This document shows, piece after piece, positions 1 to 25,962 of a DNA stretch of 26,044 nucleotides (its first letter is position 1; each line of letters begins with the position of its first letter). Both the position numbers and the translations under genes were made by a program. Source of the DNA: a virus; the IMG/VR virus record IMGVR_UViG_3300042346_000245, positions 1-26,044 of that record. One strand, 5' to 3'. A model generated the notes under the pieces. The model saw only the letters and a list, made by a program, of their open reading frames with translations. It did no database searches and was not told the origin of the DNA.

Positions 1-1047
1 GTTGAAAAAATTGGAAATCTATATTTCAAGAGGGAAGATAAATTCGCCCCTCTTGGATATGGAGGGATTAATGGATCTAAGCTTCGACAATGTATTTGGT
101 TAACTAAAGAATACGTTGAAAAGGGTAATAATCCCATCGGAGTTATTTCTGGCACTAGCGTAAAATCCCCGCAACTTCCTATGGGGTCTGCTATCGCTAT
201 GCATTTCGGATTAGAAAGTATACACGTTATTGGAGCAACTAAAGCTGAGATAGCGCATAAACATGAAAACGTAGCGATGGCCACTTGGTTTGGAGCTAGG
301 TTTTTTGTAAACCCTCAAATAGCATACAATCCTGTTCTACAAAGAAAAGTTAACGAGATTCTTGAAAGAGAAGATAGCGATGTTAAAGATTATTTTTATC
401 TAGAGTATGGTATTACCGTAGATCATAAAATTAATCATCCAAGTAAAGTAGAACAATTTCATTTAGTTGGATCTGAGCAAGTTAGAAACATTCCAGATCA
501 CATCGAAAATCTAATTATACCTGCTGGAAGTTGTAATAGTTGCACTTCCATCTTATATGGGATTGCTAGATTTAAACCTAAAAATTTAAAGAATATCTAT
601 TTAATCGGGATTGGGCCAAATAAGATTCCTTTTATCGAAGAAAGGTTAGATATTATCCAACAGCAATCTGGCCTAGATACTAAGATATTCAAAAGAAATT
701 ATATTCATTCTAAAAACTTAGAAGAATTGTATTCTAATATTCTCTTCGAAGAAGAATCTATATATAATTTATATCATTACGATCTACACACTACAAAGTA
801 CGTGGATTATCAAGATGAGATGCCATATTTTTACGAGGATATTGAATTACATCCAACGTATGAAGGTAAAGTAGCTACATATGTAAACGAAAAACTTCCA
901 GAGTTATGGAACGATAAAACTTGTTTTTGGATTGTTGGTTCTAAACCTAGAAAAGAAAATATGTATGAATTATTAAAAGATAAACTTGGCGATTTTCCAA
1001 CAAAAATTAACGAATACAAATATGATAAAAGAAACGAGTTCGCATAA
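1..1047 (+). CDS. Fold-type II PLP-dependent enzyme, 5' end cut off
   Basis: The frame is open from base 1, so the gene starts outside the window; the ATG at 181 is internal. The first 60 codons carry a hallmark of the tryptophan synthase beta / cysteine synthase / ACC deaminase superfamily: a KRED motif (residues 10-13 of the visible frame) followed by a Gly-rich stretch ending in GSK, whose Lys27 is the probable Schiff-base lysine for pyridoxal phosphate. A SGTS segment (50-53) and a Gly/Ser-rich PAGSCNSCTS loop (174-183) fit the substrate and cofactor-phosphate loops. Substrate and product are unknown. The stop lies 26 bases inside the next gene, so it appears co-transcribed with the ADDT-like and kinase genes. 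PLP enzymes act in some phage thymidine hypermodification pathways, where they remodel an amino acid attached to the base. That role is inferred here from context only; an ordinary amino-acid enzyme is the alternative. Confidence 0.75.
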   Translation, partial: VEKIGNLYFKREDKFAPLGYGGINGSKLRQCIWLTKEYVEKGNNPIGVISGTSVKSPQLPMGSAIAMHFGLESIHVIGATKAEIAHKHENVAMATWFGARFFVNPQIAYNPVLQRKVNEILEREDSDVKDYFYLEYGITVDHKINHPSKVEQFHLVGSEQVRNIPDHIENLIIPAGSCNSCTSILYGIARFKPKNLKNIYLIGIGPNKIPFIEERLDIIQQQSGLDTKIFKRNYIHSKNLEELYSNILFEEESIYNLYHYDLHTTKYVDYQDEMPYFYEDIELHPTYEGKVATYVNEKLPELWNDKTCFWIVGSKPRKENMYELLKDKLGDFPTKINEYKYDKRNEFA

Positions 1048-2179
1048 ACCAGGAAGATTTTGTAAACAAGAATTTTCTTATTTGGGGGTTGGTTTGGATT
1101 TTAGGCAACCCGCATATAGAAGAGAAGTATTTTTAAGATTTTACGAATTTCATTTAAAATATAAAGCTCATCCCGGAGCCGTATATTATATGATGCCTTA
1201 TATATCGGAAAAACTTAATTTCTCTACGGAAGATAAATTATGGTTTGCTTACATTAATGGCTGTTCTCAAAACATATTAACCACATATACCATATTCAAA
1301 GAATTCCCTAGTTTAAAAGACTTAGATATTGATAATTTCAATCTTTGGTTTCGAGAACATTATACAAAATTAGGATGGGATACTGACAGAAGGTATGTTA
1401 AAAATAGCTTCGATAAATGTATTCTAGATTATAAAAAAATCATCGGAGATAAAACTCAAGAAGATTTTTTCAATTCTTTAGCTAATACTACAGATGAGTT
1501 TGAAAATTTCAGAAATGTTTGGGATAAAGTAATAAACGATTTCTATCTATTTGGCAGGTTATCTACATTTTCTTATCTAGAATATTTAAGAATTATGGGT
1601 CTGAATATTGATTGTGATCAACTATTCTTATACGATATGGATGGAAGTAAATCGCATAGAAACGGTCTATGTAAAGTTTTAGGTAGAGACGATTTAGATT
1701 GGCACGATAAACTAAATCCTAATTTCGAAGGTTATACTAAAGATATTATTGAATGGCTAATACAAGAAGGCGAAACTTTACTCAATGAAGCTAAGGATAG
1801 ATTCAAAAAAGCTTCTTTTTATAGAGACGTTTCTTATTTTACGCTAGAATCAACTTTATGTTGTTATAAATCTTGGCATAGAAAAAACCGTAGATATCCT
1901 AACGTATATAATGATATGTTCCATGACCGCATTAAATACGCCGAGAGTAAATGGGAAGAATTTGATAAATTTAATATATTTTGGGAAGCTAGAAAAGAAC
2001 TCCTTCCTGAATATTTGAGGTTAGAAGCGAATCCGTTAGATCCGGGGGTTAAAGCGGAAAAACAAAATCATTATAGAGATACAGGACAGGTTATAATGAT
2101 GGACGATGAGTGGCCCTGTTTTAAAAATGATTTTAATGATAGATATTACCGTAGTAGAGGAATTGAGGATTTTATATGA
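1022..2179 (+). CDS. ADDT-like amino acid:DNA transferase / alpha-glutamyl-putrescinyl thymine pyrophosphorylase clade 2 homologue
   Basis: The 385-residue protein carries motifs I associate from memory with phage ADDT (aGPT-PPlase clade 2) proteins: WFAYINGCSQN at 74-84, WDTDRRYVK at 119-127, and FGRLSTFSYLEYL at 177-189. These enzymes act in hypermodification of thymine in phage DNA, where a pyrophosphorylated 5-hydroxymethyl-dU is attacked by an amino acid or amine. The protein is largely helical with no signal peptide or membrane segment. I chose the ATG at 1022; an in-frame TTG at 986 would add 12 residues but has no better ribosome site and overlaps the previous gene more. The ATG of the kinase gene overlaps this gene's stop as ATGA, indicating translational coupling. 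The exact reaction and substrate are inferred from family and neighbours. The related helical domain of 5-hmdU DNA kinases is the main alternative. Confidence 0.78.
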   Translation: MIKETSSHKPGRFCKQEFSYLGVGLDFRQPAYRREVFLRFYEFHLKYKAHPGAVYYMMPYISEKLNFSTEDKLWFAYINGCSQNILTTYTIFKEFPSLKDLDIDNFNLWFREHYTKLGWDTDRRYVKNSFDKCILDYKKIIGDKTQEDFFNSLANTTDEFENFRNVWDKVINDFYLFGRLSTFSYLEYLRIMGLNIDCDQLFLYDMDGSKSHRNGLCKVLGRDDLDWHDKLNPNFEGYTKDIIEWLIQEGETLLNEAKDRFKKASFYRDVSYFTLESTLCCYKSWHRKNRRYPNVYNDMFHDRIKYAESKWEEFDKFNIFWEARKELLPEYLRLEANPLDPGVKAEKQNHYRDTGQVIMMDDEWPCFKNDFNDRYYRSRGIEDFI

Positions 2180-2715
2180 GAAAAATTATGGCTATTTCTG
2201 GAGAACCAGGAACTGGAAAAACTTCATTGATGTGGAGATTTATCAATCAATATAAGTGGGAAACTCGAGAAGATGTAAAGTTGGTTAACAGTCTCTATAA
2301 TAAGGAATTAGATTTACATCTATTAGGTAAATATGAGCAAGGGGAAGTATTCGCCGGAACTGATCGTTTTTCTATGGCGGTTCAGCCAGCCGCTATAGAA
2401 TTCGTTCAAAAAACCGAATCTAATATTTTATTTGAGGGTGATAGATTAACTAATGGAAAATTTTATGATTTCCTTTTATCTTTACCCAATACTGAGGTTC
2501 AATTTTTAATAATTACTGCGAAGAAAGATACTTTAACTGAAAGGTATCAACTAAGGAATAGTAATCAATCAGATACTTTCTTGAAGGGTAGAAAAACTAA
2601 AATTGATAATATAATGAGTAATTTCGAATATATGGATTATAGAGAAGTTGTTCAAAATGAAGATGAACGCGATCAAACTGAAATATTAAAACGAATTAAT
2701 AATTTCTTTCAATAA
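2176..2715 (+). CDS. P-loop kinase of the hypermodification cassette (possible 5-hmdU DNA kinase)
   Basis: A 179-residue P-loop NTPase of small-kinase type. Walker A is GEPGTGKTS at residues 9-17, with Lys15 and Thr16 as the nucleotide-binding residues. The hydrophobic NILFEGDRL segment in mid-protein would supply the Walker B-like strand with Glu/Asp. An FAGTDRFSMAV segment may form the substrate site. Proteins of this type sit beside ADDT-like genes in phages with modified thymines, where a kinase phosphorylates 5-hydroxymethyl-dU in DNA to activate it. Here the gene overlaps the ADDT-like gene by 4 bases and ends the cassette just before the terminator hairpin. Kinase membership is well supported; the base substrate is inferred from context, and a nucleotide or other small-molecule kinase is possible. 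Confidence 0.72.
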   Translation: MRKIMAISGEPGTGKTSLMWRFINQYKWETREDVKLVNSLYNKELDLHLLGKYEQGEVFAGTDRFSMAVQPAAIEFVQKTESNILFEGDRLTNGKFYDFLLSLPNTEVQFLIITAKKDTLTERYQLRNSNQSDTFLKGRKTKIDNIMSNFEYMDYREVVQNEDERDQTEILKRINNFFQ

Positions 2716-2745
2716 AAAAAGGGAGCCGAAGCTCCCTTTCTTATT
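2711..2745. terminator. Bidirectional intrinsic terminator between convergent units
   Basis: AAAGGGAGC (2718-2726) and GCTCCCTTT (2731-2739) form a 9-bp stem with a 4-base CGAA loop. A-rich sequence lies on the left and T-rich sequence on the right, so both strands show a stem followed by a U-tract. It lies 2 bases past the stop of the plus-strand kinase gene and about 25 bases past the minus-strand gp23 stop, and so can end both units. Confidence 0.85.
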
Positions 2746-2763: not shown

Positions 2764-4062
2764 TTACATGATATTTCTAACAGCGAAGATTCTGTAGTAA
2801 ACGTTGGAACGAGAGTTTAGAACTCCACCGCCGACGGTTGTACCTTCAGCAAATGGGTTTGCAACCATTCCGTAACGAGTCTTGAAGCCGATCTTAGGTT
2901 GGAAAGTACCTGGATCAACTGCACGAACCATTTGTAGAGGAACGTATGGGCAGTAGAATAGACCCGCGTCATAAGGAGAAGTACCCTTATAACCAACAGT
3001 AACTAGTTCAGTACCAGCAGACATACCACCGAAGTATGGGTCGATGTAAACTTTAATACGGCCATGTAGCATACCGCAGAAAGTATTACCAGTATCGTCA
3101 ACTTGTAGATCAGCGCTTAGAGCTGGGGTGTAAGATAGAACACCAGCCATTGCTAGAGCAGAAGCTACGTCAGAAGAAACGATAAGAACATTACCTTTCC
3201 CTCTACGAGTTTCTTTCGCAATTACATTCGCTTCTCTTTCGATTTGATAAATTAGACCCTTGAAACGTTCAACAGACCAACGACCATTAGAATCGGTATC
3301 TAGATCGAATACGCCAGAAGTAACAGTACCCCATTGGCAACCAGGTTTAGCAACAGAGTAGATCGTACGGATAACTTCGCGGTTGATTTCCGCTAGGATT
3401 TCAGTAGATAGAATGTTGCTTAGTTCGGTTTCAGCGTCTAGACCATGAATCGCTTTTAGGTCTTGAGCTAGTTCTAGTGAATATTCAGCCTTTAACGCAC
3501 GAGTATTCGCGGTTACAGTTACTTTATCAATAGAAACAGCCATTTGTGGGAAAGTTCCGGTATCAAGCTGTTCAGCAACAGAAGTCTTGAATCCTAGACC
3601 AGTAGTGAATATTGAGCTGTTAGCGATATTAGCAACTGGGTTGTTAGAAGTATCAGAACCGCCAGCATTTTGAGTGGTACCAACAATACCAGAGAATACG
3701 GTATTAGCTTCGTTATAGAACGCTTCAGTACCAGACTGACCGTTATAACGCGAACGTAAAGCGAAGATTAGTCCAGTAGGACCAGTCATAGGCTGAACGC
3801 CAGCAACGTCATACGCAATTAGGTTAGGTAGCGAACGGCGAACTAGGCTGATAAGAATTGGATCGAAGTTAGAAATACCGCCAGCAACGTTAGTTGGAGC
3901 AGTTTCATTAATCGCGCCTCTTTCAGAGTCCATCGCGTTTTGCTGGTTTTCAAGAACCATAGCAGTAACGGTTCTTTTATACGGGTCTTTAATTGGTTCT
4001 AGTTCTGGGTGCTCCAGAATAGGACTCCATTTTTCAACAATTTGGTCTTCGTTTAAGTACAT
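2764..4062 (-). CDS. 23: Major capsid protein gp23
   Basis: The 432-residue protein matches the T4-like gp23 family, slightly shorter than T4 gp23. It forms the hexameric capsid lattice. The N-terminal about 50 residues are charged and helical and form the delta region removed on maturation. INE at 51-53 fits the [L/I]-x-E rule of the gp21 protease, so the mature chain should begin at Thr54. Downstream, FDPILISLVRRSLPNLIAYDVAGVQPM-type sequence (shown here only in part: SLVRRSLPNL, AYDVAGVQPM) is typical of the HK97-fold core of this family. The start has a strong ribosome site (AAGGAG). It is the last gene of the head operon, directly after gp22. The vertex protein gp24 is not in the window. 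Confidence 0.95.
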   Translation of the reverse strand: MYLNEDQIVEKWSPILEHPELEPIKDPYKRTVTAMVLENQQNAMDSERGAINETAPTNVAGGISNFDPILISLVRRSLPNLIAYDVAGVQPMTGPTGLIFALRSRYNGQSGTEAFYNEANTVFSGIVGTTQNAGGSDTSNNPVANIANSSIFTTGLGFKTSVAEQLDTGTFPQMAVSIDKVTVTANTRALKAEYSLELAQDLKAIHGLDAETELSNILSTEILAEINREVIRTIYSVAKPGCQWGTVTSGVFDLDTDSNGRWSVERFKGLIYQIEREANVIAKETRRGKGNVLIVSSDVASALAMAGVLSYTPALSADLQVDDTGNTFCGMLHGRIKVYIDPYFGGMSAGTELVTVGYKGTSPYDAGLFYCPYVPLQMVRAVDPGTFQPKIGFKTRYGMVANPFAEGTTVGGGVLNSRSNVYYRIFAVRNIM

Positions 4063-7802: not shown

Positions 7803-8216
7803 TTATTTTTCTTTACGCATTCCGTAGAAAGCTCCTAGAGCCATTTTAATTCTTTCTTCTTTAGATTTTCCTGCGAACTTAGGATCGTCTGAATGAACGA
7901 AATCTCTAATTACTTCAGAAGCTGACATACCTGAAGTTAATTTTTCATCAAGTTCATCCGATTCCTTACGGAGTTTAGAAAAATCGGCTGATGTTAATTT
8001 TCCTTTTGGTTCAGCTACATCTAATTTTTTTTGTTTTCCGACCAATTCTTTGGACTCAGTTACCCCTACATTAATCAAACTTTTAGCAACTTCAATCCTT
8101 TCTTGTTCTATTGCATTAATAATTTTGTAAGCTAATGCTGATTCAATTTCTGCTTGCATATCAGCTACATTATTGTCAAATGCGTAATCAACAGAATTTC
8201 TAACCTTTTCGTTCAT
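7803..8216 (-). CDS. Prohead-core-like protein (gp67 position)
   Basis: A 137-residue helical, charged protein directly after the portal gene, where T4 has gp67. The N-terminal part (about 8-46) has the pattern of T4-like prohead internal proteins: a short helix, then an ALAYKIINAIEQERIEVAK segment. The C-terminal part, ASEVIRDFVHSDDPKFAGKS followed by KEERIKMALGAF, resembles a conserved tail I recall from other phage head-assembly proteins. No catalytic motif is seen. It probably belongs to the internal scaffold around the portal and would be trimmed by gp21. The TAGAGGAATTT ribosome site supports the ATG chosen. Confidence 0.65.
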   Translation of the reverse strand: MNEKVRNSVDYAFDNNVADMQAEIESALAYKIINAIEQERIEVAKSLINVGVTESKELVGKQKKLDVAEPKGKLTSADFSKLRKESDELDEKLTSGMSASEVIRDFVHSDDPKFAGKSKEERIKMALGAFYGMRKEK

Positions 8217-8253
8217 TTTAAATTCCTCTAAATTTATAAGTATTTATTATTTA

Positions 8254-9915
8254 TTATTTTACGTTATATGGATTACTAGGTTTCATTTGTTGCTCTTGAG
8301 GAGGGGCAGGTTCTTCTCCTGCGTTAATTTGCGCCTCTGGATTAGGATTTAATTCGTTTTGTAACTCAATAGCTTGTTGTTGAAGCATAATCTGCTTTTG
8401 TTGATCTTCTGATTGTTTTTCGAAATCTTCGGCAGATTCTTCGTCCATTTCTTTTTTCATTTCTGCCATTTCTATATCGTTGAATCTCAAAACATTCTCA
8501 GAAATCCATTTTTTAGAATAGTATTTGCCTGCGTATTGATCTATAATAGCAAGAATACCTAATCTTTCTTGCATTAATTCCGCTTCTTTTAATTCTACGA
8601 AATTATTATCTTTTATAAAATCGTAATAAACATCTTCTTTATATAATCCCCATTCTTCCTCAGTACAAACTCCTTTTAAAACTAGTTGTACTCTTAGAGC
8701 TTGATCGAATATTTCGGAAAATTTTCCTCTTATTTTATCAATAAATTTAGAGAATTTTAATTCGTCTCTAGTAATTTCTGTAGATCTTCCTATAGAAGTC
8801 GCTTGACTTGGATCTAATCTAGTTACAGGAACATTTAAAGATTTATATAATTTTCTTTCAAAATAATTTACATCTTCTAATTGACCTAAGTTCTGACCAG
8901 AAGGTAATGTAGTAATTTCTGTGGATTTTCCATCGCTTCTGCGAGGCATCCAGAAATCTTCCATCATAGAAAGATGTCTTCTATCGTCCCTAACTTCTCC
9001 TGTTTGAGCATCATAGACCAATTTATTTTTGTATTTGGTCATAATATCTTTGACGTATTGTTCTGCTTTAATTCTAGGAAGATTACCGACGTCAATATAA
9101 AAAATTCTTCTTTCTGGTGCTCTACTTAATCTATAGATAACCACGGCGTCTTCAATCATTCTTAATTGATTGAGAGGTTTAATTGCTTTGTGTAGGTATG
9201 ATAAAACCATACCTCTCTTAGAATCCATTAGCCCAGAATTAACATTAATTACGGAATCTGGGGCTATTTTAATACCAGCTACGGTAGAACTCATTGGACC
9301 GCTCATAATTCTTTCAGAATAAACAAAATATTCTTGAGTGGTCGTTATAATATCAATACCAGTATTAGTATCTTTTTGTTTTTTTACTTCTCTTACTTTC
9401 CTAATTTTTCTAGGATCTATATATCGTAATTCTTGAATTCCTTTTTGGGGAGATTCTATATCAACAATTAAATGATAAAATAACCTACCGTCTACATAAT
9501 ATCTACGAAATATATCAGAACCCATATTATCAAAATTTAATAATCTTAATATAGTTTTGAATTCTTCTTCTATAGCAGTTTTTATTTTATCTGGTTGTTT
9601 GAGATCGTCCATGATGATTTTGACACTTTTTCCAGTATCATCATGGACGATTGCTTCGTTTACTATATCATCAATAGCGGATTCAACTTCAGGCTGCATA
9701 GCCATTTCTCTATAACGAGTGATTAGCTCTACTTCGTTTTTAGCTGATCCGTCTAAATCAATAGCAGATGTTCCAAATTGTGCCGCAGAAGTAACAGTAA
9801 ATGCCCCATCCTCATTATTAGGCGGAGCAAATGATGGTTGTACTAATTGTTCGGCTTCATCTTCTTTCTTTCCGATTCTAAAACCAAAAAGATTGAATCT
9901 ACTTTTATCTGCCAT
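8254..9915 (-). CDS. 20: Portal vertex protein gp20
   Basis: The 553-residue product matches T4-like gp20, the dodecameric portal through which DNA is packaged and to which the neck attaches. Clear family segments are YREMAMQPEVESAIDDIVNE at about 68-87, the RYYVDGRLFYH segment (138-148), RYIDPRKIRKVREVKK (164-179) and FWMPRRSDGKSTEITTLPSG at 321-340, followed by a conserved YFERKLYKSLNVPVTRL segment (351-367). Length is close to T4 gp20 (524). The C-terminal tail is Gln/Glu/Pro-rich and probably disordered. The start has GAGGG seven bases upstream. It lies 31 bases after gp19. Confidence 0.95.
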   Translation of the reverse strand: MADKSRFNLFGFRIGKKEDEAEQLVQPSFAPPNNEDGAFTVTSAAQFGTSAIDLDGSAKNEVELITRYREMAMQPEVESAIDDIVNEAIVHDDTGKSVKIIMDDLKQPDKIKTAIEEEFKTILRLLNFDNMGSDIFRRYYVDGRLFYHLIVDIESPQKGIQELRYIDPRKIRKVREVKKQKDTNTGIDIITTTQEYFVYSERIMSGPMSSTVAGIKIAPDSVINVNSGLMDSKRGMVLSYLHKAIKPLNQLRMIEDAVVIYRLSRAPERRIFYIDVGNLPRIKAEQYVKDIMTKYKNKLVYDAQTGEVRDDRRHLSMMEDFWMPRRSDGKSTEITTLPSGQNLGQLEDVNYFERKLYKSLNVPVTRLDPSQATSIGRSTEITRDELKFSKFIDKIRGKFSEIFDQALRVQLVLKGVCTEEEWGLYKEDVYYDFIKDNNFVELKEAELMQERLGILAIIDQYAGKYYSKKWISENVLRFNDIEMAEMKKEMDEESAEDFEKQSEDQQKQIMLQQQAIELQNELNPNPEAQINAGEEPAPPQEQQMKPSNPYNVK

Positions 9916-10556: not shown

Positions 10557-13289
10557 TTATAGAACTAAAGTGTTAAAATCAACCCCAGATTTAGATGCTA
10601 TAAAATTCAATTGGATGAAATTAATAGATCTAGCTGGTTTAATATAGATGTCTGCAATAAATCCGTTAGTATCTATTACATAATCAGTATTATTACTTTC
10701 GTCGCAAACAACTCTAAAATCGTAAATACCTCTTCTGCCTTGAACTTCTCTCAAGAAAGGTTCTACAATAGAAACGAATCTTGCTCTTGTATAAGAATCA
10801 TTCATTTCAAACATTTGAAGTTTTGCTGCTCTGGAAATAGTTTTTTCTAGAGTTAAGAACAATCTTCTGACGTTTATTCTATCAAACGCGCTGACTTTAT
10901 TGTAAAGCATTTTATCGCCGAATAATAAAGTTCCTTCGCCGGTTTGATATATTACTGGATTAACGCCTTTTCTGTATAGAAGGTCTCTATTAGTTTTGTC
11001 AGCGTTCCAACCAAGCTTGGTTACGTTCATAATCTTTCCTCTATTGTATCCTGCTGGAGAATACCAAGGATCTTGATTTTTATCAGTTCTTGAACATAAA
11101 CCTGCAATATCGCCGTTTAAAGGAACCCAACGATAAATTTTCATTTTAGGATCATATTGGTATTTCCAATTATTATCCATAAACACGTAAGAAGAACTTA
11201 TACCTAAATCAGAAACATATTGTAGAATAGCATCAGATTCAAATCCGTCATTATCTATAACGTCTCCTGATTTTGGAGAAATAAACATAACACAATCTTT
11301 ACGCGGATTCACTACATTATCAAAAATATGATTCATCAAAGTTGTATTAGAACTATATCCACCAGTTAATACTAGATCATAATCATAATTTTCAGAAGAT
11401 TTTATAGCATCCCATCCATTAATTATTTTTGAAATATCTGTTGTAGAATCATATCCGCCATTGAAAGATGCATAATAGTTATCAGTTCCGGCGAAATTAA
11501 CCACTTGATCAATTTTTTTACCCCAAGTTAATTCCGTATTTTGAGGATCAATAAAATCTGAAGCGTATATGTAGTTGGAATATTCATTAATGTAATCAAC
11601 ATAATAATAGTTTCTTCCATTCGGACCTATTACATCAGAACCTTTCGATAATGCTACGAATTTTTCTAATATAGTGCCAGGGCTTCCTGTGAATAATCCT
11701 TTGCTATCTACAACAACGATATGTAATTCGTCATCTTGGCCGTAAATTTCATCAGAAGTATCAGAATAAATTCTATCCTGAACATACATAGAAGTTCCTG
11801 GAGCTTCGTCGAAAAGAGTAGAATAATCATAATCAGTTACAGGATCTTTCCAGATGCCAAATTTCGAAGCAGATGAACAAACGCTAACTTTAATAGAATC
11901 TCCCATTTTACCTGGATATTTTGCTACGAAAGGACCATACTTAGCATAAGCATCGTTATTAAATACGCCCTTTGAATTAAAGTCGTCGATATTTTTTATA
12001 TTTAAATCGCTGGTATAAGCTACTGACTTAAACGATATTCGTTCTCCAGCTGACACAGCAACAGGAAGAAAATCTTGTAATAGTATAGAAACGTTACTAG
12101 AATCGTTAGTAGCATCTAATACAGTACCAAGAAGAATTTCTGGAGATAATTTTGCAGTTGTATCATTACCGGTATAATCAGTTGGACCAGAAGTTCCTGA
12201 AATGGCTTGTTCTGCTTGAGCGCCCCAAATATATAATCCTTGGGTAGTACCGTTTCCAATCCAAGGAGTGTATGACGAGTTATTCGCTGCTAAAACCGTA
12301 AACTTATGGAAACCATTATTTGCAGAATCTGATCCTACAGTAGCAGTTACAGAACATCTATACCAATCATTTCCAACGGAAGTAATTGACGAATTGTTTG
12401 CGTAGTTTCTTGTTGTGCCGTAACTATAAGTATTACCCTGAACGCCAGAACCAGTTAATTTAAAATCAGCCTTGAATCCTATTGATGTTTTTAGGCTGTT
12501 TGTAAGTTCCATTCTTACGTTACTAATTCCGCCGGATGGTTTTAGATATACGGAATAGCAAATCGGTTTTGTACTATCTAAGGGATATCCTGTAACAACT
12601 CCGTTGTTTAGAATATATCCTTCTGTGGGTAAGATATTGGTTTGCGATGGCCCTTGAGAACGTTCAATAAAATGAGTTCCAAGTACAGATGTAGCTAAAA
12701 CTAGATCAGAATTAGAAGAAAGGTCTGGAGCTGAAGTGGCTGTAGTATTAGGAACTACAGTCGTACGACCTTTGTCCCAAGGACTAACATCAAATTTTTC
12801 TGTTCTAGTTAAGATGTTATTATAAGGATTTTTATAAACTAACATCTCAGGTATAACATTAGCAGTAAATGTATTATAACTTAAAGTAATGATATTTTCT
12901 TCTGTAGTAGCACCTAATATTGCAGCATTAGAAGAAGTTTTTCCTTGTTTTAATGTTGTATAAATTCCAGTTAATCCATAAGAATTTCTAGAATCATCGG
13001 AAGCTTCTCTAACAACATATAATAAGCTAGAGCTATATCCAAGAAAGTTTGAACAAGTGAAATAAGAACTTCCGATATCAGAAACTGCTAAATTGTTTGT
13101 AGGCGATCTGAATAAAGTATTTAATTGCCCTGAGCTGGATACTAAAGTTGGTTTGTGTACTGGACCCCAAGAAAATTCCCCAACGAATGCTCCTATCGTC
13201 GGAGATCCAGGAAGTACAGTTGATTGAGTTAAATCCAATTCGTTTATTACGATACCTGGACTAACTTGGTTTATAACATTTATAGCCAT
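10557..13289 (-). CDS. 18: Contractile tail sheath protein gp18 with inserted domain
   Basis: The N-terminus (SPGIVINELDLT at 10-21, FVGEFSWGPV at 35-44) and the C-terminal 120 residues (RRLFLTLEKTISRAAKLQMF, with RGIYDFRVVCDE further on) are clear T4-like gp18 sheath signatures. The protein is the contractile outer layer of the tail. At 910 residues it is far longer than T4 gp18 (659). Most of the extra length is a continuous insertion at about 155-378, described separately. After it, the sheath sequence resumes with AKYGPFVAKYPGKMGDSIKV at about 449-468. The start has an AAAGGAGAAG ribosome site. The gene is separated from gp17 by an unusually long gap of 468 bases and from gp19 by a hairpin and late promoter. 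Confidence 0.94.
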   Translation of the reverse strand: MAINVINQVSPGIVINELDLTQSTVLPGSPTIGAFVGEFSWGPVHKPTLVSSSGQLNTLFRSPTNNLAVSDIGSSYFTCSNFLGYSSSLLYVVREASDDSRNSYGLTGIYTTLKQGKTSSNAAILGATTEENIITLSYNTFTANVIPEMLVYKNPYNNILTRTEKFDVSPWDKGRTTVVPNTTATSAPDLSSNSDLVLATSVLGTHFIERSQGPSQTNILPTEGYILNNGVVTGYPLDSTKPICYSVYLKPSGGISNVRMELTNSLKTSIGFKADFKLTGSGVQGNTYSYGTTRNYANNSSITSVGNDWYRCSVTATVGSDSANNGFHKFTVLAANNSSYTPWIGNGTTQGLYIWGAQAEQAISGTSGPTDYTGNDTTAKLSPEILLGTVLDATNDSSNVSILLQDFLPVAVSAGERISFKSVAYTSDLNIKNIDDFNSKGVFNNDAYAKYGPFVAKYPGKMGDSIKVSVCSSASKFGIWKDPVTDYDYSTLFDEAPGTSMYVQDRIYSDTSDEIYGQDDELHIVVVDSKGLFTGSPGTILEKFVALSKGSDVIGPNGRNYYYVDYINEYSNYIYASDFIDPQNTELTWGKKIDQVVNFAGTDNYYASFNGGYDSTTDISKIINGWDAIKSSENYDYDLVLTGGYSSNTTLMNHIFDNVVNPRKDCVMFISPKSGDVIDNDGFESDAILQYVSDLGISSSYVFMDNNWKYQYDPKMKIYRWVPLNGDIAGLCSRTDKNQDPWYSPAGYNRGKIMNVTKLGWNADKTNRDLLYRKGVNPVIYQTGEGTLLFGDKMLYNKVSAFDRINVRRLFLTLEKTISRAAKLQMFEMNDSYTRARFVSIVEPFLREVQGRRGIYDFRVVCDESNNTDYVIDTNGFIADIYIKPARSINFIQLNFIASKSGVDFNTLVL
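12156..12827 (-). other. Carbohydrate-binding-like domain inserted in the tail sheath
   Basis: Residues about 155-378 of gp18 follow a module I recognise from many phage tail and fibre proteins. It begins with an ILTRTEKFDVSPWDKG-like opening (159-174), then CYSVYLKPSGG (244-254), SITSVGNDWYRCSV (301-314) and GLYIWGAQAE (351-360). This fold is a beta sandwich resembling carbohydrate-binding or LamG-like modules. It would project from the sheath surface. Boundaries are approximate and the ligand is unknown. Confidence 0.75.
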
Positions 13290-19110: not shown

Positions 19111-19965
19111 ATGATTGTAGTTACTGGAGCGAGTGGATTTATAGGTTCAAATTTAATTTTAGAACTTATTAAAAGGGGCGAAACGGATATCTTAGCGGTA
19201 GATTTCATATATAGAGATTATCTTAAAGATTTGCCTGTAATATTTTCTTATGCCGATTATTTTTATGAAAATATTGATTATTATAAAGAAAATATATCTA
19301 TGATATTTCATGAAGGAGCTATATCATCAACTATAGAAACTGATTGGAAATCTTTATTTCATAAAAACGTAAATTGCTCGTGGGAATTAATATATTATTG
19401 CAGAACTAATAATATACCATTGCAATACGCATCTTCTGCTTCCGTTTATGGAAACCCTTCAAAAGAAGAATGGAGTAATCCTAATAAAGAAACCGCTCCT
19501 TTAAATTTATATGCAAAATCAAAACAACAAGTTGATTATGTTGCAGATTTAGTTATTAAATCCAGAAAACCTCCTAAACTTTTACAAGGATTAAGATATT
19601 TCAATGTATATGGACCAAATGAAGAACATAAAGGTGATCAATCTAGTCCATATAATAAATTTACAAGTCAATTAAATGAATATGGAAAAATAAAATTATT
19701 TGAAGGTTCTGTAGAATATTACAGAGATTTTATATCGGTAGATAATGTTATTAATACCAAATTAAAATTAATAAAAGAAAACGATTCCGGTATATATGAT
19801 GTTGGAACCGGAATTCCAAAATCTTTTTACGATGTAGCGAAAGAAGTTTGTATAAAAAAAGGCATAGAAAATCCAGAACAATATATTGAATGGATTCCTA
19901 TGCAAGATAATTTAAAAGAGCATTATCAGAAATATTCTTGCGCTATTTTAGATTACATTAAATAA
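19111..19965 (+). CDS. hldD: ADP-glyceromanno-heptose 6-epimerase-like SDR (HldD)
   Basis: A 284-residue extended short-chain dehydrogenase. NAD(P) binding is VTGASGFIGSN (4-14). HEGAISSTIETD (67-78), QYASSASVYG (105-114) and RYFNVYGPNEEHKG are close to HldD rather than generic epimerases, and EYYRDFISVDNV fits the following family segment. The catalytic set is Ser109/Ser111, Tyr134 and Lys138 (YxxxK). HldD makes the ADP-L-glycero-D-manno-heptose used for LPS inner core. The C-terminus is about 25 residues short of typical bacterial HldD. It is the only plus-strand gene among minus-strand neighbours, has a GGAG ribosome site, and its end overlaps the convergent glycosyltransferase gene by 18 bases. 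Confidence 0.85.
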   Translation: MIVVTGASGFIGSNLILELIKRGETDILAVDFIYRDYLKDLPVIFSYADYFYENIDYYKENISMIFHEGAISSTIETDWKSLFHKNVNCSWELIYYCRTNNIPLQYASSASVYGNPSKEEWSNPNKETAPLNLYAKSKQQVDYVADLVIKSRKPPKLLQGLRYFNVYGPNEEHKGDQSSPYNKFTSQLNEYGKIKLFEGSVEYYRDFISVDNVINTKLKLIKENDSGIYDVGTGIPKSFYDVAKEVCIKKGIENPEQYIEWIPMQDNLKEHYQKYSCAILDYIK

Positions 19966-21375
19966 AGATTCCTTTAATTTTTCTAACGGTTCTTTCCAAG
20001 TTCTAGGAGATTCTTGTCTGAATAAAAATACATTATCGCCATACCAAGGAGATTTTTCCATAGAATGAGACCAAACATAATAAGCAGAAATAGGTACGAA
20101 AATACAAGTATTTTTACCCATAGCAGCAGAAGCATGAGCTACTGAAGTACAACTTGTAATAACAAGATCTAAATTTTCTATTACAGCTAGTGTATCTTCC
20201 CAGGAATTTAATTTATCCCCAAGATCAATAAGTCCAGGAAAATCTGATAATTCTTCTAATCCGTTATCCTTTTGTAATGAATAAAAATCTGCGTCTACAT
20301 GTTTTAAAGATTCATATATTCCTTTTAAATCAACTGATCTATGTAAATCATTATCATAGAAAGGATTTCCTTGCCATCTAATACCAATCTTTAATTTTCC
20401 GCTGGTTTTTATATGACTCCATTTTTCTATAAAAGATTTATCTGCTGTTATATAAGGCCCATACCATAGATCTTTATATTCTAGATTTAGATCTATCGGT
20501 AAATGCATAGATTGAGTATAGTAGACATCGGAATCAGAAACTTCGGATAATTTTCTTATTACATTAAATCCTTGTCTTTCAAAAACTTTTAATATATCAG
20601 ATCTTTCTGGATAAGAATTATACCAATAAGGAATCATTCCTAAATCAGTAAGTCGTTTCATAAACCTGAAATTGATTATTTCATCCCCTATTCCAGCTTC
20701 TGCATGAACTATAATAGCTGCCCCAGGTCTAGGAATTCCGTCCCATTTTTTAAACGATTGAGCTTTTATTTTATTATTAAATGTTTCTAGATTTAGATTA
20801 TTATTCCTAGCAAAAATAGATTCGGTATTCCAAACCTTCATCTTTGCGCCTTCTTCTAAGAACAACCTCAACCCTTTTTGAAATTCGTCTCTATAGAGAT
20901 AATAAGTCCCTAGATTAAATTTAACTTTAGTTTCTATTTCTTCAGATAATTCAAAGTTTGATAATAAATTTTGTAAGATTTCTTCTGCTTCATCCCTTCT
21001 AGTTAATAGATAATATGAATAAGCTTTAGCTAATAGATTATCTACATTATTAGGAATAACGTGTTCGTTTTGTTCAATATATTTTAAAGCTATTTCTGGA
21101 TAATTTGCATGTTGATATACATTAATTAAATTTTCCCTAGCGAAATATAAACGCTGGCTATCTGGAGCTAATACCAAAGCTTTCAAACCGTATTCTATTG
21201 CAGAACTATAATCTTTTAATCTAAAGAAACATTTAGCAATATTATCATATTCATCATATGATCTAGAAAATTTAGAAAAAGTTTCTAGGATTTCAACAGC
21301 TAATTCTTTTTTCTTTAATTTTTCTAAAGTTAAAATTATTGGTTCTAAATCAGAAATTCCCATTTTAGTTGTCAT
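19948..21375 (-). CDS. TPR-repeat protein fused to a GT9/GT-B-like glycosyltransferase
   Basis: A 475-residue, two-part protein. Residues about 10-190 are tetratricopeptide-type helical repeats (for example FRLKDYSSAIEYGLKALVLA, 51-70). Residues about 215-475 resemble a GT-B fold of the heptosyltransferase/TPR-glycosyltransferase kind: VHAEAGIGDEIINFRF (223-238) in the N-terminal half and NLDLVITSCTSVAHASAAMG (401-420) at the donor site. It probably transfers a sugar to a protein or glycan; heptose is an attractive donor given the HldD neighbour, but this is inference. Two starts are possible, ATG at 21375 (used) or 21363; the first overlaps the methyltransferase gene by 11 bases. No membrane segment is seen. 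Confidence 0.8.
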   Translation of the reverse strand: MTTKMGISDLEPIILTLEKLKKKELAVEILETFSKFSRSYDEYDNIAKCFFRLKDYSSAIEYGLKALVLAPDSQRLYFARENLINVYQHANYPEIALKYIEQNEHVIPNNVDNLLAKAYSYYLLTRRDEAEEILQNLLSNFELSEEIETKVKFNLGTYYLYRDEFQKGLRLFLEEGAKMKVWNTESIFARNNNLNLETFNNKIKAQSFKKWDGIPRPGAAIIVHAEAGIGDEIINFRFMKRLTDLGMIPYWYNSYPERSDILKVFERQGFNVIRKLSEVSDSDVYYTQSMHLPIDLNLEYKDLWYGPYITADKSFIEKWSHIKTSGKLKIGIRWQGNPFYDNDLHRSVDLKGIYESLKHVDADFYSLQKDNGLEELSDFPGLIDLGDKLNSWEDTLAVIENLDLVITSCTSVAHASAAMGKNTCIFVPISAYYVWSHSMEKSPWYGDNVFLFRQESPRTWKEPLEKLKESLFNVI

Positions 21376-21916
21376 CTTTCACCACAACTAGTTTAATTTT
21401 AGTATCGCTATAAACGTTATTAAACCTTTCTGAAATTTCTTGAATTTCTTCAAACCTTCCTTGTTCTACTAGAGGAAGATATCTATTTTCTATGATATAA
21501 TCAAATTCTAATACTTCAAAATCAACATTTAAAGTAAGTCCGAATCCAGAAGCTGAACCATATGTATCAATATGCCAACGGTTATATTTCTTACTGAATT
21601 TCTTAAACATTTCGACTGTTATTGGTCTAACGTGAGTAGGATCTCCGAAATAATTTTCATGTCTATGATGAGGAACTTCAATATCAATAATAGCCCCATC
21701 TTTACATACTCTATAAATCTCTTGCATAAGAGATAAGAATCCATCTCCAATATGTTCTAGAATATGATGAGCTTTAATTTCTTCTACTGAATTATCTTCG
21801 AATGGTAATTTATCTTTATTTAAATTTACAATAAAATCTGGATTGGTTAATTCGTCACAATCTACGTTTAAAAATCCATCAAAACGTTTTAACCCGCCGC
21901 CAATATTAATTTTCAT
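21365..21916 (-). CDS. Class I SAM-dependent methyltransferase
   Basis: From the ATG at 21916 the product has 183 residues. Motif I is reduced to NIGGG (4-8), followed by NVD with acidic Asp19 for SAM ribose, then a LPFEDNSVEEIKAHHILEHI segment (37-56) that is typical of the Methyltransf_11 type. The substrate is unknown; small-molecule or sugar methylation fits the neighbours. I prefer this ATG over a GTG at 21925 because AAGGTGA lies at the right distance. The start overlaps the end of the upstream Cys-cluster gene by 11 bases, and the stop overlaps the glycosyltransferase start. Confidence 0.82.
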   Translation of the reverse strand: MKINIGGGLKRFDGFLNVDCDELTNPDFIVNLNKDKLPFEDNSVEEIKAHHILEHIGDGFLSLMQEIYRVCKDGAIIDIEVPHHRHENYFGDPTHVRPITVEMFKKFSKKYNRWHIDTYGSASGFGLTLNVDFEVLEFDYIIENRYLPLVEQGRFEEIQEISERFNNVYSDTKIKLVVVKDDN

Positions 21917-22274
21917 TTTTATCACCTTGTATTATATAATATGTATTATTTTCTTTAACCCAACTATCAATAAATTCTATAATTTTTTGTTCTATATCAT
22001 TTTCCATCTGTATGACTTTCAGAAATTGTTTTTTGTTTGAATCAATTTCAACTGATATTAGAACTTTACTTTCAGTTGGCTTCATCCAATCCGGAAATAA
22101 TCCTTGACTCCATGCGCATTGATATGTTGAACAAGTTTTGGGTCTTGTGTTATATATAGAACATTTTTTATTACATAAAAATACGCAAGGGATACCATTA
22201 CCGAATTTATTTCCGTATGAATTAGAAATCAACCAGCCATCGCAACAAGCTGTACATTCCCCGCATTCTTTCAT
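21906..22274 (-). CDS. YkgJ-type (UPF0153) cysteine-cluster protein
   Basis: A 122-residue protein with the YkgJ family pattern CxxCxxCC at 4-11, then Cys30, Cys34, Cys38, Cys48 and Cys53, with the conserved YNTRPKTCSTYQC segment (41-53). These proteins are predicted to bind zinc or an iron-sulfur cluster; their function is not settled. The second half is variable and Glu/Lys-rich. The ATG directly follows the sulfotransferase stop (TAAATG), and the end overlaps the methyltransferase gene, so it belongs to the same unit. A role in the maturation or modification of a partner is only a guess. Confidence 0.85.
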   Translation of the reverse strand: MKECGECTACCDGWLISNSYGNKFGNGIPCVFLCNKKCSIYNTRPKTCSTYQCAWSQGLFPDWMKPTESKVLISVEIDSNKKQFLKVIQMENDIEQKIIEFIDSWVKENNTYYIIQGDKNEN

Positions 22275-23054
22275 TTAATATCGCCAAACTTCTAGGTCTT
22301 TAAATTTATGCTGAATATCTGGAGGTAATATCATTTGACGTTCTATCCATTTAACTTCTTTTCGAGTTGTATGTAAACCTTTTATATTAACATCAGCATC
22401 AAATTCGTCATGAGATGATTCTACATTATTAAAATCGTGTTGATAATAGGGTTGATCAATAAAGTTATATATTGCTTTCATCATACCTTCTGGATTTTTA
22501 CAAAGTTGTTCATATTCAACTAACATAATCATATTCTTTTCTTCTGAAGTTATCGCTTGTTTAAGAGATAGATAAGCGAATCCTATTGTAGAATCTTCTC
22601 TCATCAGATAATCACATCTAGAATAAACGGTAGATGAAAATTCATCCGGAATCATAAGAGATTTATCGTATGGATTTTTTCTATATAAAGTTTCAAAAGA
22701 ATCAAGAACCCAATTTAAATCTCTTACGCACATGATAAGTTTTGTATAAGGATAAATGTCTTTCAGAAACGGAGTTAGTAATCCCCATCCTCTATTAGTA
22801 TCAAAAAAGACTTCTTTATTTGGAGTATCATAATAATTATCAAAGATACCTTCAATAATTTTTTTACGTTTATCTGGAGGACATTGATGTCTATAACCAG
22901 ACATAGCTGAAGATTGTTCTATTATAGCTCTAGTAAATCTAGCTAGAGGACCAGAAATAGATGCTTGAAATTTAGGGTTTTGATTAAGGATTGCAGAAAG
23001 AAGGGTTGTTCCTGAGCGAGGCAACCCTGAAATAAAATAGTATTTTTTGTTCAT
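22275..23054 (-). CDS. PAPS-dependent sulfotransferase
   Basis: A 259-residue sulfotransferase-family protein. The 5'-phosphosulfate loop is GLPRSGTTLLS (10-20), and the 3'-phosphate site is CVRDLNWVLDSF (109-120) with Arg111 and Ser119. The family moves sulfate from PAPS to sugars, lipids or protein tyrosines; the acceptor here is unknown. Length is normal and no signal or membrane segment is seen, so it would act in the host cytosol. It is the first gene of the decorating unit and has its own late promoter 31 bases upstream, placing it among late genes and favouring a virion component as acceptor (inference). Confidence 0.88.
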   Translation of the reverse strand: MNKKYYFISGLPRSGTTLLSAILNQNPKFQASISGPLARFTRAIIEQSSAMSGYRHQCPPDKRKKIIEGIFDNYYDTPNKEVFFDTNRGWGLLTPFLKDIYPYTKLIMCVRDLNWVLDSFETLYRKNPYDKSLMIPDEFSSTVYSRCDYLMREDSTIGFAYLSLKQAITSEEKNMIMLVEYEQLCKNPEGMMKAIYNFIDQPYYQHDFNNVESSHDEFDADVNIKGLHTTRKEVKWIERQMILPPDIQHKFKDLEVWRY

Positions 23055-23097: not shown

Positions 23098-24252
23098 TTA
23101 TATATCGTCTTTTACTATTACAGTATTATATCCGCCCATAACTGAAGTTGAAACTTGTTTCCAATTGGTTCCAAAAGCTATAGTTTGTACTGGAGAACTT
23201 TTACCTGCTATTGTATTATCTCCGAGTTGTCCTCTACTATTATCCCCCCAAGTCCATAGAGTTCCATCTGTCTTTATCGCAGCTGTATTCAAATAACCGG
23301 CAGCTACTTGTTTCCAGTTAGTCCCAAATGTTATAGTTTGTACTGGAGAACTTTTAGTCGTTGTTGTGTTATCGCCTAATTGACCATATAAATTAGTGCC
23401 CCAAACCCATAGAGTTCCATCTGTCTTTATCGCAGCTGTATTATCTCCGCAAGAAACTTGTTTCCAGTTAGTGCCGAAAGCTATCGTTTGTACCGGAGAA
23501 CTTTTAGTCGTTGTTGTATTATCGCCTAATTGACCGCTAGTATTTTGCCCCCAAGACCATAAAGTTCCGTCTGTCTTTATCGCGGCTGTATGATATCTTC
23601 CCGCGGAAACTTGTTTCCAATTAACCCCAAAAGCTATAGTTTGAACTGGAGAACTTGTATTGTTCGCCGTATTATTACCTAATTGACCATTATCGTTTCT
23701 TCCCCACAACCATAATGTTCCGTCTGTTTTTATTGCCGCTGTGTGGTATCCGCAAGCTACTTGTTTCCAATTATTACTAAACGTCATTGTTTGAACTGGC
23801 GAACTTTTACCTGTTATTGAATTATCTCCCAAATTGCCATAGGTATTAGTTCCCCAAGTCCATAAAGTCCCGTCGGTCTTTATAGCAGCTGTGTAAGTAG
23901 CCCCAGCAGCGACTTGTTTCCAATTAGTACCAAATGATATTGTTTGAACAGGAGAACTTTTACTTGATATTGAATTATCACCTAATTGACCGGCATTATT
24001 CCCCCAAGTCCATAAAGTCCCGTCGGTCTTTATGGCTGCTGTATGATTTCTGCCGCTAGAAACTTGCTTCCAATTAGATCCCCGAGCAATTGTTTGAACA
24101 GGAGAACTATTATTTGTTCTTGTATTATCGCCTAATTGACCATTATTATTATACCCGCAAAGCCATAATCCGCCTTCTGAGAAAATGTCTCTTGGTACTA
24201 ACAAATTTCCAAGATCAGAGCCGTCTGAAGTTGTAAATCCTATCTTAGCCAT
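23098..24252 (-). CDS. Seven-bladed RCC1/BLIP-II-like propeller protein A
   Basis: A 384-residue protein made almost wholly of seven RCC1-type repeats of about 50 residues, from residue 28 to near the end. The repeat core is GTLWTWG, GQLGDN, SSPVQTI, FGTNWKQV and HTAAIKTD. A 27-residue leader (MAKIGFTTSDGSDLG) resembles the start of phage virion proteins. There is no signal peptide. Differences between blades concentrate on the loop after WG.N, around the residues before SSP, and on the 2-4 residues before TAAIKTD. It lies where T4 has short-fibre and whisker genes, so a receptor-binding or fibre-tip role is inferred. Its start overlaps the oxygenase-like gene by 8 bases. AAAAGGAAAAG is the ribosome site. 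Confidence 0.85.
   Translation of the reverse strand: MAKIGFTTSDGSDLGNLLVPRDIFSEGGLWLCGYNNNGQLGDNTRTNNSSPVQTIARGSNWKQVSSGRNHTAAIKTDGTLWTWGNNAGQLGDNSISSKSSPVQTISFGTNWKQVAAGATYTAAIKTDGTLWTWGTNTYGNLGDNSITGKSSPVQTMTFSNNWKQVACGYHTAAIKTDGTLWLWGRNDNGQLGNNTANNTSSPVQTIAFGVNWKQVSAGRYHTAAIKTDGTLWSWGQNTSGQLGDNTTTTKSSPVQTIAFGTNWKQVSCGDNTAAIKTDGTLWVWGTNLYGQLGDNTTTTKSSPVQTITFGTNWKQVAAGYLNTAAIKTDGTLWTWGDNSRGQLGDNTIAGKSSPVQTIAFGTNWKQVSTSVMGGYNTVIVKDDI
23110..24171 (-). repeat. Tandem RCC1-coding DNA repeats, array A (seven units of about 150 bases)
   Basis: Units are highly similar in DNA, with recurring strings such as CCAGTTAGTCCCAAA and GTCCATAAAGTTCC variants. The same units recur in array B, which makes both arrays prone to homologous exchange. 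Confidence 0.8.
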
Positions 24253-24742
24253 TATCTTTTCCTTTTAATCTGTATAATTGTATCAATCTTTGATGAGTTA
24301 AACTATGAAATAGCCAAGGTCTAAAAATTATTCCTTGATTGGGTTCTAATAATATATTAGTATGAATATCCCAATCGAGTAAATTATTATAATCAAATCT
24401 ATATTCATCCAATGCGGTTTTTGCTCCACTTAAATGATGATATAAATTAAATGTTGTAGGTTCTAATGCTAATATAAAAATCCATTCTTTCATAGAATCA
24501 AATCCTTCGAAATGTATTCTCAGATTCGGTTTTCTGAATATTCCTGAATTTTCTTCATCAACAGATACTTCTTCTCCGACGAATTTAGAAAATACAGAAT
24601 CTAATCCTGGTATTACTAGATTGAATTGATCTATTTCAAACCCGTGTTCTTTTTCTATATATTGTAAATTATTTGTACAATTAAATATATGATCAACATC
24701 GGCTTGATTATAGAAATTATCCGCTTGGAGAAGTTTTATCAA
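24245..24742 (-). CDS. 2OG-Fe(II) oxygenase-like protein between the two propellers
   Basis: A 165-residue protein with double-stranded beta-helix features. A possible metal site is His77 and Glu79 in RIHFEGFD (HxE, in place of the usual HxD), with a distal His146 in GIIFRPWLFHS (137-147) and Arg158 for 2-oxoglutarate in LIQLYRLK (153-160). The fold and spacing fit 2OG-dependent hydroxylases, which hydroxylate Pro, Asn, Asp or Lys. I chose a TTG start at 24742: it overlaps the stop of the upstream propeller gene (TTGA), with GGGGGA about 6 bases before it. Extending in frame to 24805 would overlap that gene by 67 bases. Family assignment is moderate; a non-enzymatic cupin-like protein is possible. 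Confidence 0.6.
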   Translation of the reverse strand: MIKLLQADNFYNQADVDHIFNCTNNLQYIEKEHGFEIDQFNLVIPGLDSVFSKFVGEEVSVDEENSGIFRKPNLRIHFEGFDSMKEWIFILALEPTTFNLYHHLSGAKTALDEYRFDYNNLLDWDIHTNILLEPNQGIIFRPWLFHSLTHQRLIQLYRLKGKDNG

Positions 24743-25962
24743 AAATCGTCCCCCATTTCTTGAATGGCCGCTGTGTGAAAATATCCACAAGATACTTGTT
24801 TCCAATTAGTTCCGAATGTTATTGTTTGAACAGGAGAACTTTTTGGAGTTGTTGTATTATCTCCTAATTGACCATACATATTTCTTCCCCATACCCATAA
24901 AGTTCCATCGGTTTTAACTGCGGCTGTATGTGCTCCAGTAGATACTTGTTTCCAATTAGTTCCGAATGTTATTGTTTGAACTGGAGAACTTTTTGGAGTT
25001 GTTGTATTATCTCCTAGTCGTCCACCAGTATTATCTCCCCAAGTCCATAAAGTTCCATCCGTCTTTATTGCTGCTGTATGACTTCTGCCGGCATCTACTT
25101 GTTTCCAATTAGTTCCAAATGCAATTGTTTGAACTGGAGAACTTTTTGGAGTTGTTGAGTTATCTCCTAATCGCCCGTCGTTATTATATCCCCCGCATGC
25201 CCACAAAGTGCCATCAGTCTTTATTGCTATTGTATGATCTTGACCTGCAGAAACTTGTTTCCAGTTAGTCCCAAATGCAATTGTTTGTACTGGAGAACTC
25301 GTACTATTTGCTGTATTGTTTCCTAATTGACCATAAAGATTATATCCCCAAGTCCATAAAGTTCCATCAGTTTTTATTGCTGCTGTATGATACCCGCAAG
25401 ATACTTGTTTCCAATTAGTACCGAATGTTATAGTTTGTACTGGAGAACTTTTATTTGTTCTTGTATTGTCTCCTAATTGTCCGCCATTATTATGTCCCCA
25501 AGTCCATAAAGTTCCGTCCGTCTTTATCGCAGCTGTATGGAGATAACCGCAAGAAACTTGTTTCCAATTAGTACCGAATGCTATAGTTTGAACTGGAGAA
25601 CTTCTGCTAGTTGTTGAATTATCTCCTAATTGACCAGAACTATTTCTACCCCAAAGCCATAAAGTTCCGTCCGTCTTTATCGCAGCTGTGGAATTATGGT
25701 CTGTTGATATTTGTTTCCAATTAGTTCCATATGCTATTGTTTGAAACGGAGAACTTTTATCGGTTGTTGTATTATCTCCTATTTGACCAATAGAATTATT
25801 TCCCCAACTAAATAAACCAGCAAATTGTATATTACCTAATCCGCTTAAATAAGGATAAACATCAATTAAATATTCTTTAGTAACAAATTTAACCCCAAGA
25901 TCTACGTTATTTTCCGCAGAACTTTCTCTAAAGTTGCTGATAAATTGATTATTAGCTGCCAT
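24739..25962 (-). CDS. Seven-bladed RCC1/BLIP-II-like propeller protein B
   Basis: A 407-residue paralogue of protein A with seven RCC1-type blades from about residue 49 to the end. The core is the same (GTLWTWG, GQLGDN, SSPVQTI, FGTNWKQV, HTAAIKTD). The 48-residue leader differs (ANNQFISNFRESSAENNVDL) and looks like a virion-attachment segment shared by several phage structural proteins. Blade 5 carries an extra residue (WACGGYNNDG), and the last blade ends in HTAAIQEMGDDF in place of a full closing strand. No signal or membrane segment is seen. Surface or receptor-binding function is inferred from fold and position. Its end overlaps the start of the oxygenase-like gene. Confidence 0.85.
   Translation of the reverse strand: MAANNQFISNFRESSAENNVDLGVKFVTKEYLIDVYPYLSGLGNIQFAGLFSWGNNSIGQIGDNTTTDKSSPFQTIAYGTNWKQISTDHNSTAAIKTDGTLWLWGRNSSGQLGDNSTTSRSSPVQTIAFGTNWKQVSCGYLHTAAIKTDGTLWTWGHNNGGQLGDNTRTNKSSPVQTITFGTNWKQVSCGYHTAAIKTDGTLWTWGYNLYGQLGNNTANSTSSPVQTIAFGTNWKQVSAGQDHTIAIKTDGTLWACGGYNNDGRLGDNSTTPKSSPVQTIAFGTNWKQVDAGRSHTAAIKTDGTLWTWGDNTGGRLGDNTTTPKSSPVQTITFGTNWKQVSTGAHTAAVKTDGTLWVWGRNMYGQLGDNTTTPKSSPVQTITFGTNWKQVSCGYFHTAAIQEMGDDF
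24760..25818 (-). repeat. Tandem RCC1-coding DNA repeats, array B (seven units of about 150 bases)
   Basis: Seven units with long stretches of identical DNA among themselves and with array A, for example around the CCAATTAGTTCCGAATGTTA string that occurs in more than one unit. Confidence 0.8.

Follow-up and report, generated by a model that had tools for sequence, protein, structure and literature searches.

Three overlapping genes at the left end of a contig from an environmental T4-like phage are genes 2 to 4 of a four-gene operon, the first gene of which encodes a TET/JBP dioxygenase. This contig, the window, is an entire virus record (IMGVR_UViG_3300042346_000245; 26,044 bases). The best reading of the operon, to which we would give a probability of roughly 80%, is that it directs a post-replicative hypermodification of thymine that is started by the TET/JBP enzyme.

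On the plus strand of the window, overlapping ORFs at 1..1047, 1022..2179 and 2176..2715 encode a fold-type II PLP enzyme (348 of 374 a.a., the 5' end being lost at the contig end), an amino acid:DNA transferase (ADDT; PF18724, formerly aGPT-PPlase clade 2), which is a homologue of orf247 of Salmonella phage ViI (Vi01), and a small P-loop kinase of the Ploopntkinase3 type. A reading of the sequence alone (the sequence-only reading) had placed three coupled genes here, and their coordinates and strand were correct. At the operon end, a terminator-like hairpin with a T-rich tail (plus strand, 2718..2739; 9 pairs, loop of 4) separates the kinase gene from that for the T4-type major head protein gp23 (minus strand, 2764..4062; PHROG 138, 3.8e-155), which is convergent with the operon. 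The gp20 portal, gp18 sheath and gp17 terminase genes lie elsewhere in the window, in agreement with the earlier statement that the cassette stands beside T4-type head genes.

The region left of base 1 is covered by a second contig, L003, which is identical to the window start over 3075 of 3075 bases and adds 1849 bases leftward. An hmdU synthase gene had been presumed to lie on this side; L003 instead carries, just left of base 1, a gene for a TET/JBP 2-oxoglutarate dioxygenase (L003 429-1775, 448 a.a.), which overlaps the full-length PLP ORF (L003 1772-2896, 374 a.a.) by 4 nt. The 448-a.a. product matches Tet_JBP (PF12851) with an E-value of 8.7e-22 (77.5 bits; cut-off 34.9), and a profile of the family reaches human TET2 in the PDB (3.1e-6). 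The iron ligands of the HxD...H motif and the downstream arginine are present, with H301xD303, H354 and R367 invariant. The labels "SNF2 DNA repair protein" and "queuine tRNA-ribosyltransferase" that homologues of this protein carry were rejected, because the proteins concerned match Tet_JBP. Every adjacent pair of genes in the TET/JBP-PLP-ADDT-kinase unit overlaps, by 4-26 nt; the ADDT and kinase ORFs stand at L003 2871-4028 and 4025-4564, and the hairpin closes the unit at L003 4567-4588. Upstream of the TET gene are an RBS and a sigma-70-like promoter match (TTGACT-17-TATAAT, 11/12); total promoter matches in L003 were no higher than in shuffles, and only this 11/12 site was used. The overlaps, together with the promoter-like site and RBS before the TET gene, argue that the four genes form one operon.

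None of the three window proteins alone reaches a curated Pfam cut-off in single-sequence scans, and their families, PHROGs and folds were therefore examined. The PLP protein gave no match in its own Pfam scan, and the sole NCBIfam match found beside the Pfam scans of the PLP and ADDT proteins was a sub-threshold one to ACC deaminase. However, 14 of 22 aligned relatives of the PLP protein match PF00291, a PLP family, and the window protein falls in PHROG 3650 (3.2e-106), the PHROG of Vi01 orf226, with which it is 48% identical over its length. In the PDB, a profile of the family picks up ACC deaminase (6.7e-5), and Foldseek aligns an AlphaFold model (pLDDT 92.9) with D-cysteine desulfhydrase and ACC deaminase (E-value 2.6e-10). 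Lys53 in the motif NGSKLRQ, invariant in alignments A1 and A6, is the candidate residue for the Schiff base with PLP. The earlier assignment to fold-type II PLP enzymes is thereby borne out, and by analogy with orf226 the protein is predicted to decarboxylate a DNA-bound amino acid. The same reading had added that this enzyme may define a new product; since the homology to the ViI enzyme is full-length, no positive reason for this was found.

The ADDT presents a similar case. The window copy alone has no PF18724 match in the Pfam scan, and to that extent its earlier assignment to the ADDT/aGPT-PPlase families did not hold, but it is upheld by family, PHROG and structure. PF18724 is matched by 23 of 31 aligned relatives; a copy that is 59% identical to that of the window matches it with an E-value of 5.2e-22, over the cut-off, and the window protein belongs to PHROG 3271 (5e-81), that of Vi01 orf247, to which it is only 27% identical (alignment A4). 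A model of the protein (pLDDT 92.8) has as its best match 8z2m, a 5-phosphomethyl-dU (5-PmdU) glycinyltransferase (Z 15.8, rmsd 3.8 over 260 residues); the next folds, those of DNA glycosylases and queuine-salvage enzymes, reach only Z 7.5-9.7. The link to 8z2m came from structure comparison only, as a search of the PDB with the sequence family gave nothing credible. The protein is predicted to be an amino acid:DNA transferase that acts on phosphorylated hydroxymethyluracil in DNA.

The third protein has the P-loop GEPGTGKT and a near-cut-off match to PF18751, Ploopntkinase3 (5.2e-6, 26.6 bits; cut-off 27), and 21 of 23 relatives match this family with E-values of 0.001 or better, so that its identification as a P-loop kinase stands. 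Across the family, the GK of the P-loop is invariant and GxD and EGDR-type motifs are also found, the latter in most members; the kinase alignment (A3) is too diverse for use as a search profile. The label "terminase small subunit" attached to PHROG 800 was rejected for this protein, since it shows the kinase profile of PF18751 and its gene accompanies those for TET and ADDT. It is predicted to phosphorylate 5-hydroxymethyluracil in DNA.

The operon is found in relatives. A T4-like contig of 168,653 bases (L008, also G001), the source of the 59% identical ADDT, carries the same operon of four genes, and its T4-type head genes are 35-60% identical to those of the window. Among the best 80 of 539 ADDT relatives in IMG/VR and further loci, TET, ADDT and kinase genes occur together in nearly all cases where the contig is long enough, and the orders TET-PLP-ADDT-kinase, PLP-ADDT-kinase-TET and TET-ADDT-PLP-kinase were seen. 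The slot between TET and ADDT may hold the PLP gene, a methyltransferase-like gene of ~260 a.a., both (L005) or neither; slot and order counts were dereplicated for identical ADDT cores only, and near-copies remain in them. All four genes are also present on L230, a contig listed as part of an Actinomycetota MAG. One contig (G054, locus L137) has PLP-ADDT-kinase, with neither a TET gene nor a hydroxymethylase/HMUDK_hel front end detected in its 93.8 kb, and TET is therefore not the sole possible start.

The two front ends were compared in 40 whole records, of which 24 were picked by HMUDK_hel (PF18723) and 16 by an ADDT or PLP enzyme of the window type. Tet_JBP occurs in 15 of the 16 window-type records and in none of the 24 HMUDK_hel records (Fisher 4e-10), whereas PF00303, the thymidylate synthase/hydroxymethylase family that includes the hmdU synthases, occurs in 0/16 and 18/24, respectively (Fisher 6e-6); the records are related and not independent, and these P values are thus descriptive. 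HMUDK_hel is likewise found in none of the 16, and the window-type records that lack both it and PF00303 include contigs of 168.6, 173 and 306 kb, the first of which lacks terminal repeats and is possibly incomplete. HMUDK_hel was also not found in the window record, a result that says little, as this record spans just 26 kb of an incomplete genome. The same pattern was seen in an earlier set of 26 records: HMUDK_hel without TET in Vi01, Montesquieu, L022 and L023, and TET without HMUDK_hel in most of the others. The other half of the exclusion fits a statement from work on pelagiphages, according to which a thymidylate synthase always accompanies aG/PT-PPlase1 in M6-like systems (PMC9599517). 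The exclusion is not absolute for PF00303 as a whole, as Caulobacter phage Cr30, which has TET, ADDT and kinase genes, also has a PF00303 gene resembling an ordinary thymidylate synthase. In a tree of the ADDTs, the front end switches at least four times, for instance between mycobacteriophage Heath (TET) and its neighbor Montesquieu (hydroxymethylase), a number that is approximate because the tree is a quick one with long branches. The main argument that both front ends deliver hydroxymethyluracil is this interchange of TET and hydroxymethylase before ADDT and PLP enzymes of the same families, and the absence of PF00303 and HMUDK_hel from the 16 window-type records suggests that the start is most likely oxidation of thymine in DNA rather than incorporation of hmdUTP. 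Hence, the earlier proposal of a thymidine hypermodification cassette holds as to what the genes encode and which pathway they belong to, but not as to a start by hmdU synthase.

The kinase, transferase and remodelling steps in phages M6, ViI and phi W-14 were reportedly described by Lee in 2018 and 2022. For these three phages, the logic of the steps is also set out in PMC6449724. In the pathway proposed for the window phage, which follows this logic, the TET/JBP enzyme would hydroxylate the methyl group of thymine in phage DNA, yielding 5-hydroxymethyluracil. The small P-loop kinase would then phosphorylate the resulting hydroxyl, the ADDT would exchange the phosphate for a free amino acid (serine by analogy), and the PLP enzyme would decarboxylate the attached amino acid. 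In the DNA of Vi01, about 40% of T is present as 5-NeOmdU, i.e., 5-(2-aminoethoxy)methyl-dU (PMC11721090). Given the homology of the PLP enzyme and ADDT to those of ViI, the same nucleoside, made from serine, is the first guess for the product here, although the background would be ordinary T and not hmdU. Such a base may serve to protect the phage DNA from restriction.

Within this TET-started pathway, a different amino acid or a PLP reaction of another kind, for example elimination or epimerisation, would lead to an undescribed nucleoside. This variant is unlikely, though far from negligible. The low identity of the ADDT to that of Vi01 leaves room for it, since substrate specificity is unreadable from sequence, and the methyltransferase that occupies the slot in some relatives indicates that products vary; the PLP enzyme, on the other hand, shares both its PHROG and nearly half of its residues with the ViI enzyme.

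A route through cytosine, with 5-methylcytosine as the substrate of TET, 5hmC as that of the kinase and C as the base that receives the amino acid, is improbable. TET/JBP enzymes of other organisms do act on 5mC, a C5 methyltransferase occurs together with TET in the Melnitz phages and in G004, and methylation by the host could supply 5mC even to a phage without a methyltransferase of its own. However, the 168.6-kb relative and the TET-type records tested, Melnitz and G004 apart, yielded no PF00145 methyltransferase, which speaks against a 5mC substrate. Moreover, the same ADDT and PLP families accompany an hmdU synthase in ViI-type phages, and the nearest solved ADDT structure is a transferase acting on a phosphomethylated deoxyuridine. 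On this indirect evidence, we infer that the modified base is T rather than 5mC.

It is very unlikely that the window phage follows the standard ViI pathway, with an hmdU synthase encoded elsewhere in the genome feeding hmdUTP to replication and TET as an accessory. The close family relationship of the PLP enzyme and ADDT to the ViI enzymes would suit this, as would the incompleteness of this phage's own genome, but both marker families of that pathway are absent from the 16 window-type records and the first gene of the operon is TET. Least probable of all is a role in amino-acid or nucleotide metabolism, or a set of remnants: metabolism commonly makes use of fold-type II PLP enzymes and P-loop kinases, and several homologues carry unrelated annotations, yet the linkage of several genes is conserved despite shuffled order, the active-site motifs are intact and the ADDT fold matches a DNA-modifying transferase.

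The TET-started operon can be set against several known systems. ViI (Kuttervirus, Ackermannviridae) has the PLP and ADDT families in common with the window, but it lacks a TET/JBP gene and encodes a thymidylate-synthase-like hydroxymethylase and HMUDK_hel at dispersed places in its genome; in contrast, the window phage has a compact operon with TET/JBP first and a kinase of the PF18751 type. Glutamicibacter phage Montesquieu has adjacent ADDT, PLP and PF18751 kinase genes, as in the window, with a thymidylate synthase/hydroxymethylase and HMUDK_hel in place of TET. Rhodococcus phage Tonitrus has been annotated with ParB, Tet-like JBP, aGPT-Pplase2 and 5-hmU DNA kinase (PMC11955845). In Tonitrus and Heath, TET/JBP, aGPT-PPlase2/ADDT and P-loop kinase genes stand side by side as in the window operon, but a ParB-like gene is present instead of the PLP enzyme (searched for in Heath, none by description in Tonitrus), and neither phage is T4-like. 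Among cultured T4-like phages, TET orthologues are found in Cr30 and DLP6 (46-48% identical) and in C48C1 (43%). Cr30 also has an ADDT (PF18724, 1.3e-52) and a kinase, with the genes dispersed, and TET alone was recognised in the regions of DLP6 and C48C1 that were read. No PLP homologue was found in any TET-bearing cultured phage tested, including Cr30, DLP6, C48C1 and Heath. Among solved structures, the one nearest in fold to the window ADDT is gp46/PUGT of Pseudomonas phage PaMx11 (8z2m), which is 12% identical in sequence and, per its entry title, transfers glycine.

Iyer et al. reportedly predicted in 2013 that TET/JBP enzymes start base hypermodification in phages. To our knowledge, hmdU incorporated during replication is the starting point of the phage thymidine hypermodifications that have been characterised. 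Sets of TET, ADDT and kinase genes are already known, having been predicted or annotated in actinophages. What is new is the PLP enzyme on a TET front end, of which no report was found in the open-access literature, together with the setting in a T4-like phage and the mutual exclusion of the two front ends. It is tentatively proposed, as a conjecture well short of the main reading, that these operons represent a distinct and widespread class, in which TET/JBP and the PF18751 kinase replace hmdU synthase and HMUDK_hel and thymine is rebuilt in place at sites chosen by TET. The slot between TET and ADDT, whether filled by the PLP enzyme, the methyltransferase, both or neither, would then be interchangeable and give rise to several nucleosides, some of them undescribed and possibly including that of this phage.

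If a TET-started pathway does operate, it would leave the nucleotide pools and the DNA polymerase unchanged and could be sequence-selective, and its four compact genes would constitute a transferable package. The long-standing prediction that phage TET/JBP enzymes are an entry to thymine hypermodification becomes directly testable with four small proteins; the PF18751 family supplies a candidate kinase, and one assay could settle the substrate. T4-like phages would thereby gain a possible disguise for their DNA besides glucosylated hmC.

Homologues of the TET/JBP dioxygenase occur in four cultured phages, DLP6 (L040 12001-13347), C48C1 (L041 11941-13359), Cr30 (L002 3647-4975) and Heath (L035 785-1759), where their annotations are "SNF2 DNA repair protein", "hypothetical" or "queuine tRNA-ribosyltransferase". 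The Cr30 kinase is likewise annotated as a "terminase small subunit". Phage Montesquieu is a mixed case for the PF18751 kinase family, as it encodes two such kinases in tandem (L036 6930-8123) alongside the hydroxymethylase and HMUDK_hel of the other front end.

In the 93.8-kb relative L137 (G054), the operon reads PLP-ADDT-kinase and no TET, hydroxymethylase or HMUDK_hel gene was found, so that a third kind of front end is possible. The region directly downstream of this operon contains a radical-SAM-like ORF (10960-12399) as well as ParB-like genes. In L021 (G006), the TET gene (8014-8902) is split into two overlapping ORFs, and the joined reading contains in-frame stops; this broken gene is the product of either decay or sequencing error.

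Within the window, the 910-a.a. tail sheath (10557-13289, minus strand) aligns at both ends with that of the 168.6-kb T4-like relative, while a stretch of more than 300 a.a. after approximately residue 96 is unmatched, which suggests from the alignment that a domain has been inserted there. A cluster encoding an epimerase, a TPR protein, a methyltransferase, a CxxCxxCC protein and a sulfotransferase (19111-23054) is possibly a set for surface or glycan decoration. Two minus-strand RCC1-type repeat proteins (23098-24252 and 24739-25962; PHROG 4219, "regulator of chromosome condensation") have closely similar repeat units, and tail and surface genes are close to both.

In many relatives, the slot between TET and ADDT is occupied by a methyltransferase-like protein of approximately 260 a.a. 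(e.g., L005 2008-2781 and L026 9219-10004), which has a DFPYFG motif and a weak RrnaAD match; in L005 its gene occurs together with a PLP gene. A possible role for this protein is methylation of the attached amino acid or of the base. After its TET gene, C48C1 carries a stretch (L041 13356-15388) encoding an uncharacterised protein and a UDP-galactopyranose-mutase-like protein, which suggests a modification of the sugar type from the same TET start.
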